Origin: Gelidibacter salicanalis | Lineage (GTDB): Bacteria > Bacteroidota > Bacteroidia > Flavobacteriales > Flavobacteriaceae | DNA length: 64,000 bases | Direction: 5' to 3' | Assembly: GCF_007997285.1 (NCBI RefSeq) | Contig: NZ_VORX01000002.1 | Coordinates: 620,001-684,000 of the forward strand | In this document: piece after piece, positions 16,342 to 50,243 of the stretch | How positions within the stretch are numbered: position 1 is the stretch's first letter | Layout of the letters: each line of letters opens with the position of its first letter | Notes under the pieces: generated by a model | What the model saw: only the letters and a program-made list of their open reading frames with translations | Databases searched by the model: none | Told to the model about the DNA's origin: nothing | Translations under genes and position numbers: made by a program

Positions 16342-19300
16342 ATGATACAAGTAACACCCTATAAACCTAAACATAAAGTTAGAATCGTAACCGCAGCATC
16401 GCTTTTTGACGGGCATGATGCCGCTATCAATATTATGCGACGCATCATTCAATCTACAGGGGTTGAAGTTATTCATTTAGGCCACGATAGAAGTGTGGAA
16501 GAGGTTGTAAATACGGCCATTCAGGAAGATGCGAATGCTATTGCCCTGACGTCTTACCAAGGTGGACACAATGAGTACTTCAAGTATATGTATGATTTGT
16601 TAAAGGAGAAAGGTGCTGGCCATATCAAGATTTTTGGTGGTGGTGGTGGTGTAATCCTTCCGGAGGAAATTAAAGAACTCATGGATTATGGTATTACAAG
16701 AATTTATGCCCCAGATGATGGAAGGGAATTAGGCTTACAGGGGATGATAAATGATTTGGTAGAAACCTCAGATTATGCCATTGGCGATGTGCTGGAAAAT
16801 GAATTGGAGCAGTTAGAAATCAAAAATCCGAAAGCAATTGCCAGAATCATCTCTTCAGCTGAAAATTTCCCTGAAGTAGCTAAAGCTACTTTGGATAAAA
16901 TTCACACAAAAAATGAAAATTCAAAAACGCCTGTTCTTGGAATTACGGGGACGGGAGGTGCTGGAAAATCGTCTTTGGTGGACGAACTGGTGCGCCGATT
17001 TTTAATAGATTTTCCTGAAAAAACCGTAGGTTTAATTTCTGTCGACCCTTCAAAACGTAAAACTGGCGGTGCACTTTTGGGAGACCGCATACGTATGAAT
17101 GCCATTAACAGCCCGCGCGTATATATGCGTAGTTTGGCTACCAGACAATCTAATTTAGCGCTTTCAAAATATGTCAACGAAGCCATTCAAGTTTTAAAAG
17201 CGGCAAAATATGATTTGATTATTTTAGAAACTTCAGGTATTGGTCAATCCGACACTGAAATTATTGAACATTCTGATGTGTCACTATATGTAATGACGCC
17301 AGAATTTGGTGCTGCCACCCAATTGGAAAAAATTGACATGCTCGATTTTGCTGATTTGGTAGCCATCAACAAATTTGATAAACGTGGTTCATTGGATGCT
17401 TTGCGTGATGTGAAGAAACAATACATGCGCAACCACCAATTGTGGGATGTGGATCAAAGTGATTTGCCCGTTTTTGGAACTATTGCCTCGCAATTTAATG
17501 ATCCGGGTATGAACACGCTTTACAAAGCGATCATGGATGAGGTGATGAAGAAAACGGATGCCGATTTAAAATCAGACTTTGTCATTTCGCAAGAAATGAG
17601 CGAAAAAATATTTGTCATTCCTCCAGCCAGAACACGCTACCTTTCAGAAATTGCAGAAAGCAATCGCGCTTACGATACAACGGCAAACGAACAAGTTGAA
17701 GTTGCCCAAAAACTCTACGGTATTTATAAGACTTTAGAGTCTGTAGTTGGTAATACCCCGGAATTAGATAAGGCAGGTATTGACAGTGCATCTGTCAAGG
17801 ATGTAGCTGATGATCATAAGGATTTTGTCAAATTGTTAGTAGGCGAGTTTGATCGTGTCAAACTAAACCTCGATCCTTACAATTGGGAAGTATTATTAGG
17901 ATGGGACGAGAAGGTCAATTCCTATAAAAACCCGATCTATTCCTTTAAAGTTAGAGATAAAGAAATAAAAATTGAAACCCATACAGAATCCCTTTCTCAT
18001 GTACAAATTCCTAAAGTTGCACTTCCAAAGTATCAAGCTTGGGGAGACATCTTAAGATGGATTTTACAAGAAAACGTGCCGGGAGAATTTCCGTTTACCT
18101 CTGGTTTATATCCTTTTAAACGCACCGGTGAAGATCCTGCGCGTATGTTTGCTGGAGAAGGCGGACCAGAACGTACCAATAGACGTTTTCACTATGTAAG
18201 TATGGGCTTGCCAGCCAAGCGTTTGTCTACTGCGTTTGACAGTGTGACCCTATATGGAAATGATCCAGATTTACGCCCTGATATTTACGGGAAAATCGGG
18301 AATGCTGGGGTGAGCATTTGCTGTTTGGATGATGCCAAAAAACTCTATTCCGGGTTTAATTTAACCCACGCCATGACTTCTGTGAGTATGACCATCAATG
18401 GTCCTGCTCCTATGTTGTTGGGCTTCTTTATGAATGCGGCTATAGATCAGCAATGTGAATTGTATATCAAAGAAAATGGATTAGAACAAGAGGTAGAGAC
18501 TAAAATTGCAAACATCTATGAAGATAAAGGAGTTGACCGACCAACCTATAATGGTGATTTGCCAGAAACCAATAACGGATTAGGGCTAATGTTGTTAGGT
18601 GTTACTGGAGATCAGGTGTTGCCAGATGACGTGTATCAGGATATTAAAACTAAAACGATTGCTCAGGTGCGAGGTACCGTTCAAGCGGATATTTTAAAAG
18701 AAGATCAGGCACAGAATACCTGTATTTTCTCTACAGAATTCGCCTTGAGATTGATGGGCGATGTTCAGGAGTATTTTATTGAAAATAATGTCCGTAACTT
18801 CTATTCGGTGTCTATTTCAGGTTACCATATTGCAGAGGCGGGCGCGAATCCAATCACCCAATTGGCGCTCACGTTATCTAACGGATTTACCTATGTAGAG
18901 TATTATTTAAGTAGAGGGATGGATATCAATAAATTTGGTCCAAACCTATCCTTCTTTTTCTCCAATGGGATCGATCCAGAATATGCTGTGATAGGTCGTG
19001 TAGCACGTAAGATATGGGCAAAAGCGATGAGAAATAAATACGGTGCTGATCCGAGAGCGCAAATGTTGAAATATCACATCCAAACCTCAGGTCGTAGTTT
19101 ACACGCGCAGGAAATCGATTTTAATGATATTCGTACAACGCTTCAAGCCTTGTATGCCATTTACGACAACTGCAACTCGCTACATACAAATGCTTACGAT
19201 GAAGCCATTACAACCCCTACAGAAGAATCAGTGCGTCGTGCCATGGCCATTCAATTAATCATCAATAAAGAATTAGGATTAGCGAAAAACGAGAATCCAA

Positions 19301-19764
19301 TTCAAGGTTCCTTCATCATCGAAGAACTGACCGATTTGGTGGAAGAAGCAGTGTTATTGGAGTTTGATCGCATTACGGAGCGCGGTGGAGTGCTTGGTGC
19401 GATGGAAACTATGTATCAGCGGAGCAAAATTCAGGAGGAAAGCTTATACTATGAGACCTTAAAACATAACGGCGAGTTTCCAATTATTGGTGTAAACACG
19501 TTTTTAAGCAGCAAGGGGTCGCCAACGGTAATCCCGAAAGAAGTGATTAGAGCAACGGAAGAAGAGAAACAGTACCAGATTAAGACTTTGGAAAATCTGC
19601 ACAAAAGAAATGATACGGACGACTTGTTAAAGGAGCTTCAGCATAAAGCCATAAGTAATGAAAATATCTTTGAAGCTTTGATGGAGGTCTGTAAAGTATG
19701 TTCGTTGGGCCAGATAACAGAAGCCTTATTTGAAGTAGGAGGGCAGTATAGAAGAAACATGTAA
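16342..19764 (+). CDS. icmF: Fused acyl-CoA mutase with G-protein chaperone (IcmF type, B12-dependent)
   Basis: A 1140-residue single-chain enzyme in IcmF order: N-terminal B12-binding domain with [10 protein letters not shown] (axial His25) and [13 protein letters not shown]; then a MeaB-like GTPase with P-loop GTGGAGKS near residues 203-210; then the (beta/alpha)8 mutase domain from about 560 to the end. The order B12 domain-GTPase-mutase distinguishes it from two-subunit methylmalonyl-CoA mutase. The substrate-site segment [20 protein letters not shown] has Phe (about residue 592) where methylmalonyl-CoA mutases have Tyr, fitting isobutyryl/butyryl-CoA or pivalyl-CoA rather than methylmalonyl-CoA. 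The GTPase part handles cofactor loading. Exact substrate is inferred. Confidence 0.93.
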
Positions 19765-19773
19765 GCAGCGAAC

Positions 19774-19798
19774 CACATTTTCCTTTTCGGAAAATGTG
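19774..19798 (+). terminator. Hairpin after icmF at the edge of the repeat array
   Basis: CACATTTTCC (19774-19783) pairs perfectly with GGAAAATGTG (19789-19798) around a 5-nt loop, 10 nt after the icmF stop. It lacks a clean T-run, so termination is uncertain; the 3' arm belongs to the first 85-bp repeat. Confidence 0.4.
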
Positions 19799-20818
19799 TG
19801 TGAGTCGCTTATCCCGCTATTTCAGCGGGATCTTTAGAAGTTTAAGCCAAATCTTGAATTGAACTTAATTTTCGGAAAATGTGTGTGAGTCGCTTATCCC
19901 GCTTTTTCATCGGGATCTTTAGAAGTTTAAGCCAAATCTTGAATTGAACTTAATTTTCGGAAAAATGTGTGTGAGTCGCTTATCCCCCTTTTTCAGCGGA
20001 TCTTAAGCAGAATTAAGCCAAATCTTGAATCGAGCTCAATTTTCGGAAAATGTGTGTGAGTCGCTTATCCCGCTATTTCAGCGGGCTCTTAAGAAGTATA
20101 AGCCAAATCCTGAATCGAACTTAATTTTCGCAAAACTTGTGTGAGTCGCTTATCGCGCTTTTCAGCGGGCTCTTAAGAAGTTCAAGCCAAATTTCGAATA
20201 GAACGTAATTTTCGGAAAATGTGTGTGAGTCGCTTATCCCGCTTTTTCAGCGGGATCTTAAGAAGTTCAAGCCAAATTTCGAATAGAACGTAATTTTCGG
20301 AAAATGTGTGTGAGTCGCTTATCCCGCTTTTTCAGCGGGATCTTTAGAAGTTCAAGCCAAATTTCGAATAGAATGTAATTTTCGGAAAATGTGTGTGAGT
20401 CGCTTATCTCGCTTTTTCAGCGGGATCTTTAGAAGTTCAAGCCAAATTTCGAGTAGAATGTAATTTTCGGAAAATGCGTGTGAGTCGCTTATCCCGCTTT
20501 TTCAGCGGATCTTAAGCAGAATTAAGCCAAATCTTGAATCGAGCTCAATTTTCGGAAAATGTGTGTGAGTCGCTTATCCCGCTATTTCAGCGGATCTTAA
20601 GCAAAATTAAGCCAAATCCTGAATCGAACTTAATTTTCGCAAAACTTGTGTGAGTCGCTTATCGCGCTTTTCAGCGGGCTCTTAAGAAGTTTAAGCTAAA
20701 TCTTGAAAAGAACATAGTTGTCACAAAACTGGTGTGAGCCGTTTATCCCGCTATTTCAGCGGGATTCTAAAAATCTTAAGCCAAACCTTAAATCGAACTT
20801 AATCTTTGCAAATCTTGT
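19784..20818. repeat. Array of twelve tandem ~85-bp repeats, each with a GC-rich hairpin
   Basis: The landmark TGAGTCGC (TGAGCCG in the last unit) recurs at 19801, 19886, 19972, 20057, 20142, 20226, 20311, 20396, 20481, 20566, 20651 and 20735, so the period is 84-86 bp, mostly 85. Each unit contains ATTTTCGGAAAAT (a 13-bp dyad), then GTGTGAGTCGCTTATCCCGCT with a loop and AGCGGGAT (8-bp stem in the best copies), then an AT-rich AAG..TTAAGCCAAAT segment. The period is not a multiple of three and no frame stays open, so it is non-coding. It fills the space between icmF and the cysteine-rich peptide gene and contains no spacers. Units 3-5 resemble units 9-11, a higher-order duplication. Confidence 0.95.
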
Positions 20819-20911: not shown

Positions 20912-21013
20912 ATGAATAATAATCAATGTGCATGTAAATGCGACAACTGTCAAAAAGGAAATTGTGCGGCTTGCACGTGCGAAAATTGTACTTGCAAAAA
21001 CTGCAACTGTTAA
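20912..21013 (+). CDS. Cysteine-rich 33-residue micropeptide, metallothionein-like
   Basis: ATG at 20912 to TAA at 21013 encodes 33 residues of which 11 are cysteine: C6, C8, C10, C13, C18, C21, C23, C26, C28, C31 and C33, in CxC and CxxC spacing, with Asn, Lys and Thr between and no aromatic residue. This is the composition of a metallothionein, a cytoplasmic thiolate metal chelator, although it is shorter than BmtA/SmtA-type proteins and lacks histidine. It ends directly in cysteine. The sigma-factor gene with a cysteine-rich tail begins 78 nt downstream on the same strand. I know of no named family; the metal-binding role is inferred from composition. Confidence 0.72.
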   Translation: MNNNQCACKCDNCQKGNCAACTCENCTCKNCNC

Positions 21014-21091
21014 GCTTAATTTAAAATGATCGTAAAGAGCGTCTGTTTTAGTAATTTTATACTAGAGCAGATGCTTTTTAAATGCACTTTT

Positions 21092-49989: not shown

Positions 49990-50129
49990 ATATTTAGTTG
50001 GCAGTATTCAGTTGGCAGTATTCAGTATTCAGTATTCAGTTGGCAGTTTGCAGTCAGCAGTCTTCAGTAGGCAGTCACTAAAAATTAGTATTCAGTATAC
50101 AGTTGGCGGTCATCAGTGAGCAGTTAAAG
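49990..50129. repeat. Heptanucleotide-period array, 20 units (GTNNNCA family)
   Basis: In-phase 7-mers such as GTATTCA, GTTGGCA, GTTTGCA, GTCTTCA, GTAGGCA and GTCATCA run from directly after the TerB-like stop. GTATTCA and GTTGGCA dominate at the start; the last units decay. The period excludes a protein-coding explanation. Confidence 0.9.
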
Positions 50130-50180
50130 GTCAGATCATTTCATAATTACAATCTTCAGAATTATGATTTCTATTTTAAA

Positions 50181-50243
50181 ACCTAAAACCTAAAACCTAG
50201 AACCCAAAACCCAAAACCTTAAACCTGAAACCTCAAACCAAAA
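50181..50243. repeat. Second heptanucleotide array, 9 units (ACCTAAA family)
   Basis: ACCTAAA, ACCTAAA, ACCTAGA, ACCCAAA, ACCCAAA, ACCTTAA, ACCTGAA, ACCTCAA and ACCAAAA follow in phase, ending 1 nt before the uvrB stop codon. It has the same period but a different word from the adjacent array. Confidence 0.9.

Follow-up and report, generated by a model that had tools for sequence, protein, structure and literature searches.

The attC sites of integrons have conserved ends, a variable stem and an extrahelical base, retain their fold while the sequence drifts, and carry the core sites GTTRRRY and RYYYAAC. REP sequences, as described in PMC3733652, are short intergenic palindromes that form hairpins, are sometimes clustered, and carry an unpaired GTAG or CGTC tag and a CCA tail; those of the CGTC type are reported there from Bacteroidetes and have a stem of 8–9 bp that starts with AT pairs. 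Where REPs are associated with RAYT genes, the palindromes flank the gene of this Y1 transposase. For the IS200/IS605 family, PMC6006769 describes pairing between a guide and its target. Finally, the TAACTGA repeats of Beggiatoaceae, Cyanobacteria and some Bacteroidetes are, according to PMC4679880, scattered between genes and perhaps horizontally spread by a mover that is not known, and they form longer arrays in some Bacteroidetes.

Here, we describe a structured repeat of Gelidibacter salicanalis and its relatives. Its starting point is a window of 64 kb, by which we mean the whole stretch of DNA analysed, in which a first-pass annotation had seen twelve hairpin-bearing units of about 85 bp between icmF and a gene for a cysteine-rich peptide. 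On balance, we think that the source of this array was a short mobile element, non-autonomous and about 70–75 bp long, with two hairpins. The nearest known kind is that of the REP sequences, and in our best reading the element represents a new family, REP-like in style.

Results

Twelve units downstream of a fused mutase gene

Tandem Repeats Finder reports 12.0 copies of an 85-base period at 19784–20803 (87% matches, score 1407, copy number as assembled), far stronger than any other tandem repeat of the window; twelve copies and this score rule out a chance origin. Twelve occurrences of the anchor GAGTCGCTTATC/GAGCCGTTTATC, spaced 84–86 bases apart, agree with the unit number first given, and the location between the two genes is equally correct:

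16342–19764, + strand: icmF-type fused methylmalonyl/isobutyryl-CoA mutase, 1140 residues (Pfam MM_CoA_mutase, MeaB and B12-binding)
19784–20803, + strand: tandem array of 12 units of 84–86 bp each; the 5′ half of hairpin 1 (see below) is missing from units 2–12
20912–21013, + strand: cysteine-rich frame of 33 residues, a neighbour only, with no Pfam match

A sigma factor gene lies beyond the cysteine-rich frame, and frames similar to the latter seem to come after icmF at two other loci (L257 and L261). The window also has other short tandem arrays, 6.1 copies of TATTCAGTTGGCAG at 49991–50075 and 9.6 copies of TAAAACC at 50177–50243.

As annotated, the array is non-coding, regular and hairpin-bearing. 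Both dyads assigned to each unit were found: ATTTTCGGAAAAT is present in most units, and ATCCCGCT..AGCGGGAT is disrupted in several, for example 3, 5 and 9–11. The view that the array is without CRISPR, rRNA or attC character also stands. CRISPR arrays combine identical repeats with unrelated spacers, whereas here whole 85-bp units are 75–98% alike in pairwise comparison, without spacers; the attC boxes GTTRRRY/RYYYAAC were absent, by eye, from unit 1 and from the alignment.

Units 1 and 2 are 97% alike and the block of units 3–5 resembles that of units 9–11, from which we conclude that tandem duplication and the copying of whole blocks enlarged the array; unit 12 has diverged furthest. By one motif count, own genome included, the icmF site holds 12, 4, 2, 3, 2, 1 and 0 units in seven genomes of the genus, and a second site, behind an RDD gene, holds 5, 5, 4, 3, 3, 2, 1 and 1 units in eight. 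Of three window units folded singly, unit 1 forms the element described below and units 6 and 7 do not. Because of this and of the varying unit number, the array seems to be an outgrowth rather than the primary object, with units 2–12 as decaying tandem copies of the element's 3′ part. At four loci of the same genus (L025, L027, L036 and L041), some units have the REP-like CCCTGAGCGNAGYCGAAGGG within or in place of their GAGTC part.

Two adjacent hairpins, the first enclosing the stop codon

Two features had been overlooked in the first-pass annotation. The element starts upstream of the array, at the icmF stop codon (19761; the TAA at 19762–19764 follows an ATG codon), and of its two adjacent hairpins, the first is complete in array unit 1 only. 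The own genome contains further copies, one with the second array behind the RDD gene and a third behind a CMD gene. The 5′ part of unit 1 reads ATG TAA GC AGCGAACC and is followed by the stem:

19761–19812, + strand: hairpin 1, from fold and covariation
19761–19766 with 19807–19812, + strand: helix P1, GTAAGC paired with GCTTAT, the icmF stop codon within the helix
19767–19771, + strand: internal loop, 5′ side, AGCGA, conserved, ending in GA, which forms tandem G.A pairs with 19802–19803 (alignment and pair counts)
19772–19801, + strand: variable stem P2, arms 19772–19783 and 19789–19801, bulged T at 19799
19802–19806, + strand: internal loop, 3′ side, GAGTC, conserved (alignment)
19813–19833, + strand: hairpin 2, CCCGCT..AGCGGG and then ATCT, without a U-run; at other loci a REP-like CCTGAGCGNAGTCGAAGG body in the same position

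P1 is followed inward by A.C, G.U and C-G or A.A; then come the two tandem G.A pairs, a short bulge-containing helix and P2. Hairpin 2 adjoins P1, and the GCTTAT at its foot is paired in P1. Folded alone, 19759–19833 reaches −34.2 kcal/mol, compared with −14.9 for shuffled sequences (z −6.9). A canonical kink-turn was considered and dropped on inspection by hand, since three additional bases follow the G.A pairs on the 3′ strand. None of the Rfam 15 covariance models matched the element in the window stretch or at 23 other loci; an miRNA match at 21030–21083 and the Rfam matches at the other loci lie outside the element and far under the cut-offs.

The anatomy of hairpin 1, i.e. P1 with the stop codon, the tandem G.A pairs, the bulge and a free P2, is maintained by compensatory change. 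Among 15 first-unit elements, 13 of 26 pairs have changed on both sides and 96% of the cells are paired, which none of 500 shuffles reach, and slid partners pair in at most 47%. With 96 elements, in an alignment fitted to the covariance model, 22 of the 26 pairs have changed on both sides; every pair of P2 has done so somewhere, and its sequence is almost free. In a model-free check anchored on the stop codon and GARTC (70 of 79 elements kept, L122 excluded beforehand), the pair of the second stop base is A-T 64 times and G-C 3 times, position +5 is C-G 57 times and T-A 10 times, and position +11 is A-T 50 times and G-C 13 times. P1 occurs not only as TAAGC/GCTTA, but also as TAAGT/ACTTA and TGAGC/GCTCA, both sides having changed together. 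That the non-Watson-Crick loop is kept while paired bases are exchanged speaks for selection on the fold. On the sense strand, G.U mispairs outnumber A.C mispairs (31 vs 14 in P2, 25 vs 5 in hairpin 2); this excess and the strict register at the stop codon favour a molecule of the sense strand, RNA or DNA.

Comparison with described systems

The element shares with attC sites the conserved ends, the variable stem, the extrahelical base and a sequence that drifts on a kept structure; it differs by the absent core boxes and by having no cassettes. An intrinsic terminator consists of a G+C hairpin and a U run, whereas hairpin 2 is followed by ATCT. The likeness to REPs (PMC3733652) extends beyond the short, hairpin-forming and sometimes clustered palindrome: the stem described for the CGTC type is matched by ATCCCGCT..AGCGGGAT and elsewhere by ATCCTGAGCG..CGAAGGAT, and the body of hairpin 2 is in many cases REP-like, its 8-bp stem opening with AT. 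However, the element has neither the unpaired tag nor the CCA tail, hairpin 1 with its stop codon in P1, tandem G.A and bulge is peculiar to it in the literature searched, and it occurs in few copies per flavobacterial genome, tied to the stop codons of few genes. As in IS200/IS605 (PMC6006769), a sequence 5′ of the hairpin foot, GCTTA, is complementary to the presumed insertion edge, TAAGC, and the stem is bulged; unlike there, no Y1 transposase was found linked to it, hairpin 1 stands between the putative target and guide, and their pairing is a prediction from sequence. The TAACTGA repeats resemble the element in being scattered and perhaps horizontally spread, in having no known mover and in forming arrays, but they are heptamers without a conserved fold and stand mostly before start codons (PMC4679880). 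Open-literature searches on REPs and on flavobacterial and clostridial repeats, and with consensus strings of the element, found no description of it.

Occurrence at gene ends in Flavobacteriaceae

Beyond its copies at RDD and CMD in the own genome, the element is matched by covariance model R1 in 71 of 299 Flavobacteriaceae genomes (57 of 236 genera). From the R1 matches listed, 80 places were fetched, one per array, excluding the own genus and most weaker matches. In 77 of these, a sense frame of 115 codons or more terminates at the stop codon in P1. The three exceptions are small duplications: of TAAG at a dnaK end, of 16 bases at a CMD end, and of a dnaK tail on both sides of a REP. Judged by C-terminus, with Pfam confirmation on one member each, the places belong to seven families: dnaK (24), RDD (20), icmF (19), a dicarboxylate symporter (6), FKBP (5), CMD (4) and SOD (2). 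One htpG (HSP90) and one aldehyde dehydrogenase end with the element were found later.

A pattern scan of named genomes yielded at least 115 stretches. Among the 80 listed, three are from Clostridium and 77 from Bacteroidota, mostly from genera of Flavobacteriaceae (Gelidibacter, Winogradskyella, Flavobacterium and Salegentibacter among them), and the latter follow icmF, dnaK, RDD or CMD. With model R2, a scan of 296 genomes of the phylum gave matches in 10 genomes inside Flavobacteriaceae and in 6 outside, these being weak and resembling plain REPs. Phage and plasmid searches did not find the element, and viral contigs gave no match; a single match in a G+C-rich contig, with poorly pairing arms, was judged to be due to chance.

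Since the same element is found behind dnaK, RDD, SOD and other genes, there is nothing special to icmF about it, and an icmF-specific regulator was rejected. The finding that the first-pass annotation named as a refutation, a genome-wide repeat with no link to the locus, holds by half: the element does occur elsewhere, but at gene ends in Flavobacteriaceae.

The same fold in Clostridiaceae

An element search in the family of C. ganghwense detected the same fold in 65 of 206 Clostridiaceae genomes. C. ganghwense carries it at the stops of two flagellin genes; in C. neonatale, 28 copies lie dispersed, and none of them ends a frame longer than 70 codons. Among the 25 loci shown from a set of 28 in Clostridiaceae, 12 lie elsewhere and 13 at a gene stop, namely of flagellin (nine), SipL-LysM (two), FlgN and a permease (Pfam, one member each). 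Here, too, 20 of 26 pairs have changed on both sides, with a covariation score of 0.312 compared with 0.100 after shuffling. Where an upstream gene is called, 13 of 51 Clostridium copies face the opposite way; at L501, an antisense element stands directly ahead of the 16S rRNA start, and three more places in that genome score identically.

Several clostridial genomes carry the element inside the loop of a larger hairpin that is likewise dispersed. Of 16 copies of this host hairpin, 13 contain the window-type element, two stand empty, and one has a different type that occupies another loop position, its P1 being AAAGC/GCTTT. The host hairpin, CATCTGAGTCTTAG..CTTATCCAGG..GATCGGATAAA, is itself a dispersed structured repeat without an Rfam match in the loci scanned; it occurs at L506–L513, L518, L520–L525, L492, L493, L503 and L504.

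A separate observation concerns the flagellin genes at L477, L478, L479 and L486, where the last 20 codons, which precede the element, are split from the rest of the frame by several hundred bases in an intron-like manner. At L477, L479 and L486, the opposite strand further downstream carries a LAGLIDADG-type frame (Pfam LAGLIDADG_2 for L486).

Traces of gain, loss and descent

A readable dnaK end is available in 216 of 397 family genomes. Most of those listed from this set lack the element and have an ordinary U-run terminator some tens of bases past the stop codon; several carry a REP-like hairpin only a few bases from that codon. At most of the 22 element-bearing dnaK loci shown, the U-run terminator is still there, downstream of the element. 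Because it mostly persists and hairpin 2 has no U-run of its own, the element at dnaK is probably an insert that was added between the stop codon and the old terminator. At L130, L339 and the dnaK ends of genomes G225, G256 and G276, the last 20-odd bases of dnaK are doubled around a REP-like hairpin.

The icmF ends were compared on a quick-type tree with many open forks, built from 128 C-terminal parts (100 of 132 icmF ends plus 29 others, with the short row L237 dropped). With intact and remnant elements labelled from model matches and by eye, the 40 intact ones require at least 30 changes on this tree. Between TAAGCAG and CGCTTA, the 132 ends also include other interiors, such as GACACTTGG..CCTTAGTGG and GGATTCC..GTGAATA, and at L139 and L242 an other-type interior stands ahead of a displaced window-type element. 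Sister rows may differ in their interior, other same-genus pairs are instances of plain descent with decay (L102/L229, L145/L265), and structureless TAAGCAG remnants occur. Further tandem copies are without TAAGC and start near GAACC, which suggests that the 5′ strand of P1 may be a piece of the gene end.

Within one genome, the copies found at different genes are more alike (0.563, 35 pairs, one dnaK locus, L088, being labelled SDF) than are copies from different genes in different genomes (0.447, 2972 pairs), base composition being uncontrolled; only 1 of 2000 permutations is as high. In genome G293, the P2 regions at RDD and icmF are identical.

The element was found at none of 31 Y1-transposase loci. 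A PF01797 match exists in 12 of 18 element genomes and is absent from the remaining six, RAYT genes are flanked here by palindromes other than the element, and no Y1 relatives were found among 138 Clostridium neighbour frames. The own genome has a lone Y1-transposase gene (L050, C15:324496–324834) with its own flanking palindromes, GACCTCACAGG..CCTGTGAGGTC.

Discussion

That a mobile element gave rise to the array accords with its structure, its position, its insertion before an old terminator, its dispersal and the existence of both filled and empty host hairpins. Mobility is further favoured by the scattered presence on the icmF tree, by the different interiors in sister lineages and by the resemblance of copies within a genome. 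Against it, the searches found no Y1 gene linked to the element and no copy in phages or plasmids, and TAAG is common, so a TAAG target alone cannot account for the position of nearly all flavobacterial copies on the stop codons of few gene families; moreover, some same-genus pairs follow plain descent with decay, flavobacterial genomes carry few copies each, the empty host hairpins could be losses, and the extra tandem copies without TAAGC blur the border between target and element.

Concerning the direction of movement, the target rule and the enzyme, we infer the following as most likely from the sequences. The folded single strand would be the substrate of an enzyme that inserts it after TAAG; the GCTTA that lies at the foot of hairpin 2 would recognise TAAGC as its target by pairing, in an IS200/IS605-like manner. 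Once inserted, a unit could be expanded to arrays by slippage and would decay from the far end. A bolder version, to which we give limited credence, is that the element homes to stop codons: the guide GCTTA would pair with TAAGC, so that the stop codon forms half of the first helix, the guide would change with its target (ACTTA with TAAGT, GCTCA with TGAGC), and one mover would serve Flavobacteriaceae and Clostridiaceae.

The first-pass annotation had left several roles open (transcript stability, protein binding, recombination site, source of small RNAs). The evidence points instead to a mobile hairpin at gene ends, and a role in the 3′ structure of mRNA may still hold. In that case, the stop-codon hairpin would be a cis-acting RNA of the 3′ UTR, bound by a protein or shielding the mRNA from 3′ exonucleases, and under selection at chaperone, oxidative-stress and other genes. 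The sense orientation and precise alignment with the stop codon at 77 of 80 places, a gene set rich in chaperones and stress proteins (HSP70, HSP90, FKBP, SOD, CMD), the excess of G.U over A.C mispairs, the flagellin stops in Clostridium and the conserved non-Watson-Crick loop would all fit. We nonetheless consider it unlikely, though the strongest contender to mobility, given the patchy presence, with only a minority of the listed dnaK ends bearing the element, and the 28 C. neonatale copies at no long gene end; a purely mRNA-based role is additionally at odds with the reversed Clostridium copies (13 of 51) and with the set that stands antisense before 16S rRNA.

Three further explanations were weighed. 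Membership in a known REP family moved by a resident RAYT (TnpA-REP) transposase appears improbable. The frequent REP-like CCTGAGCGNAGTCGAAGG with an ATCT tail in hairpin 2, the plain REP-like hairpins a few bases from some dnaK stops and the CGTC REPs reported in Bacteroidetes (PMC3733652) speak for it, but the element has no GTAG/CGTC tag, and we rejected it on account of the other palindromes at RAYT genes, the 0 of 31 Y1 loci and the 6 of 18 genomes without PF01797. A duplicated intrinsic transcription terminator, suggested by the 3′ end position and the strong hairpin 2, is very improbable and was likewise rejected: hairpin 2 is not followed by a U-run, an ordinary terminator lies past the element at most of the dnaK loci shown, and the conserved internal loop of hairpin 1 would be needless for termination. 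Just as improbable is descent alone, in which the family ancestor already had the element at a few genes and it was lost many times without ever moving. The decayed orthologues in sister species (L102/L229) and the structureless TAAGCAG remnants agree with it; yet another phylum has this fold as a multicopy repeat, host hairpins are both empty and filled, sister lineages have different interiors, and copies within a genome resemble each other.

We thus return to a mobile two-hairpin element as the preferred reading. The presence of the same fold in flavobacteria and clostridia suggests an overlooked kind of tiny mobile element: small palindromes whose register is set by a stop codon, with a fold, including the tandem G.A pairs and the bulge, that is common to two phyla. 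Arrays like the one behind icmF would then be explained as by-products of such an element. If it is mobile, it may offer a route to the mover of tag-less REP-like repeats; if it is functional, it would be a 3′ structure that embraces the stop codon on dnaK, htpG, SOD and flagellin mRNAs.
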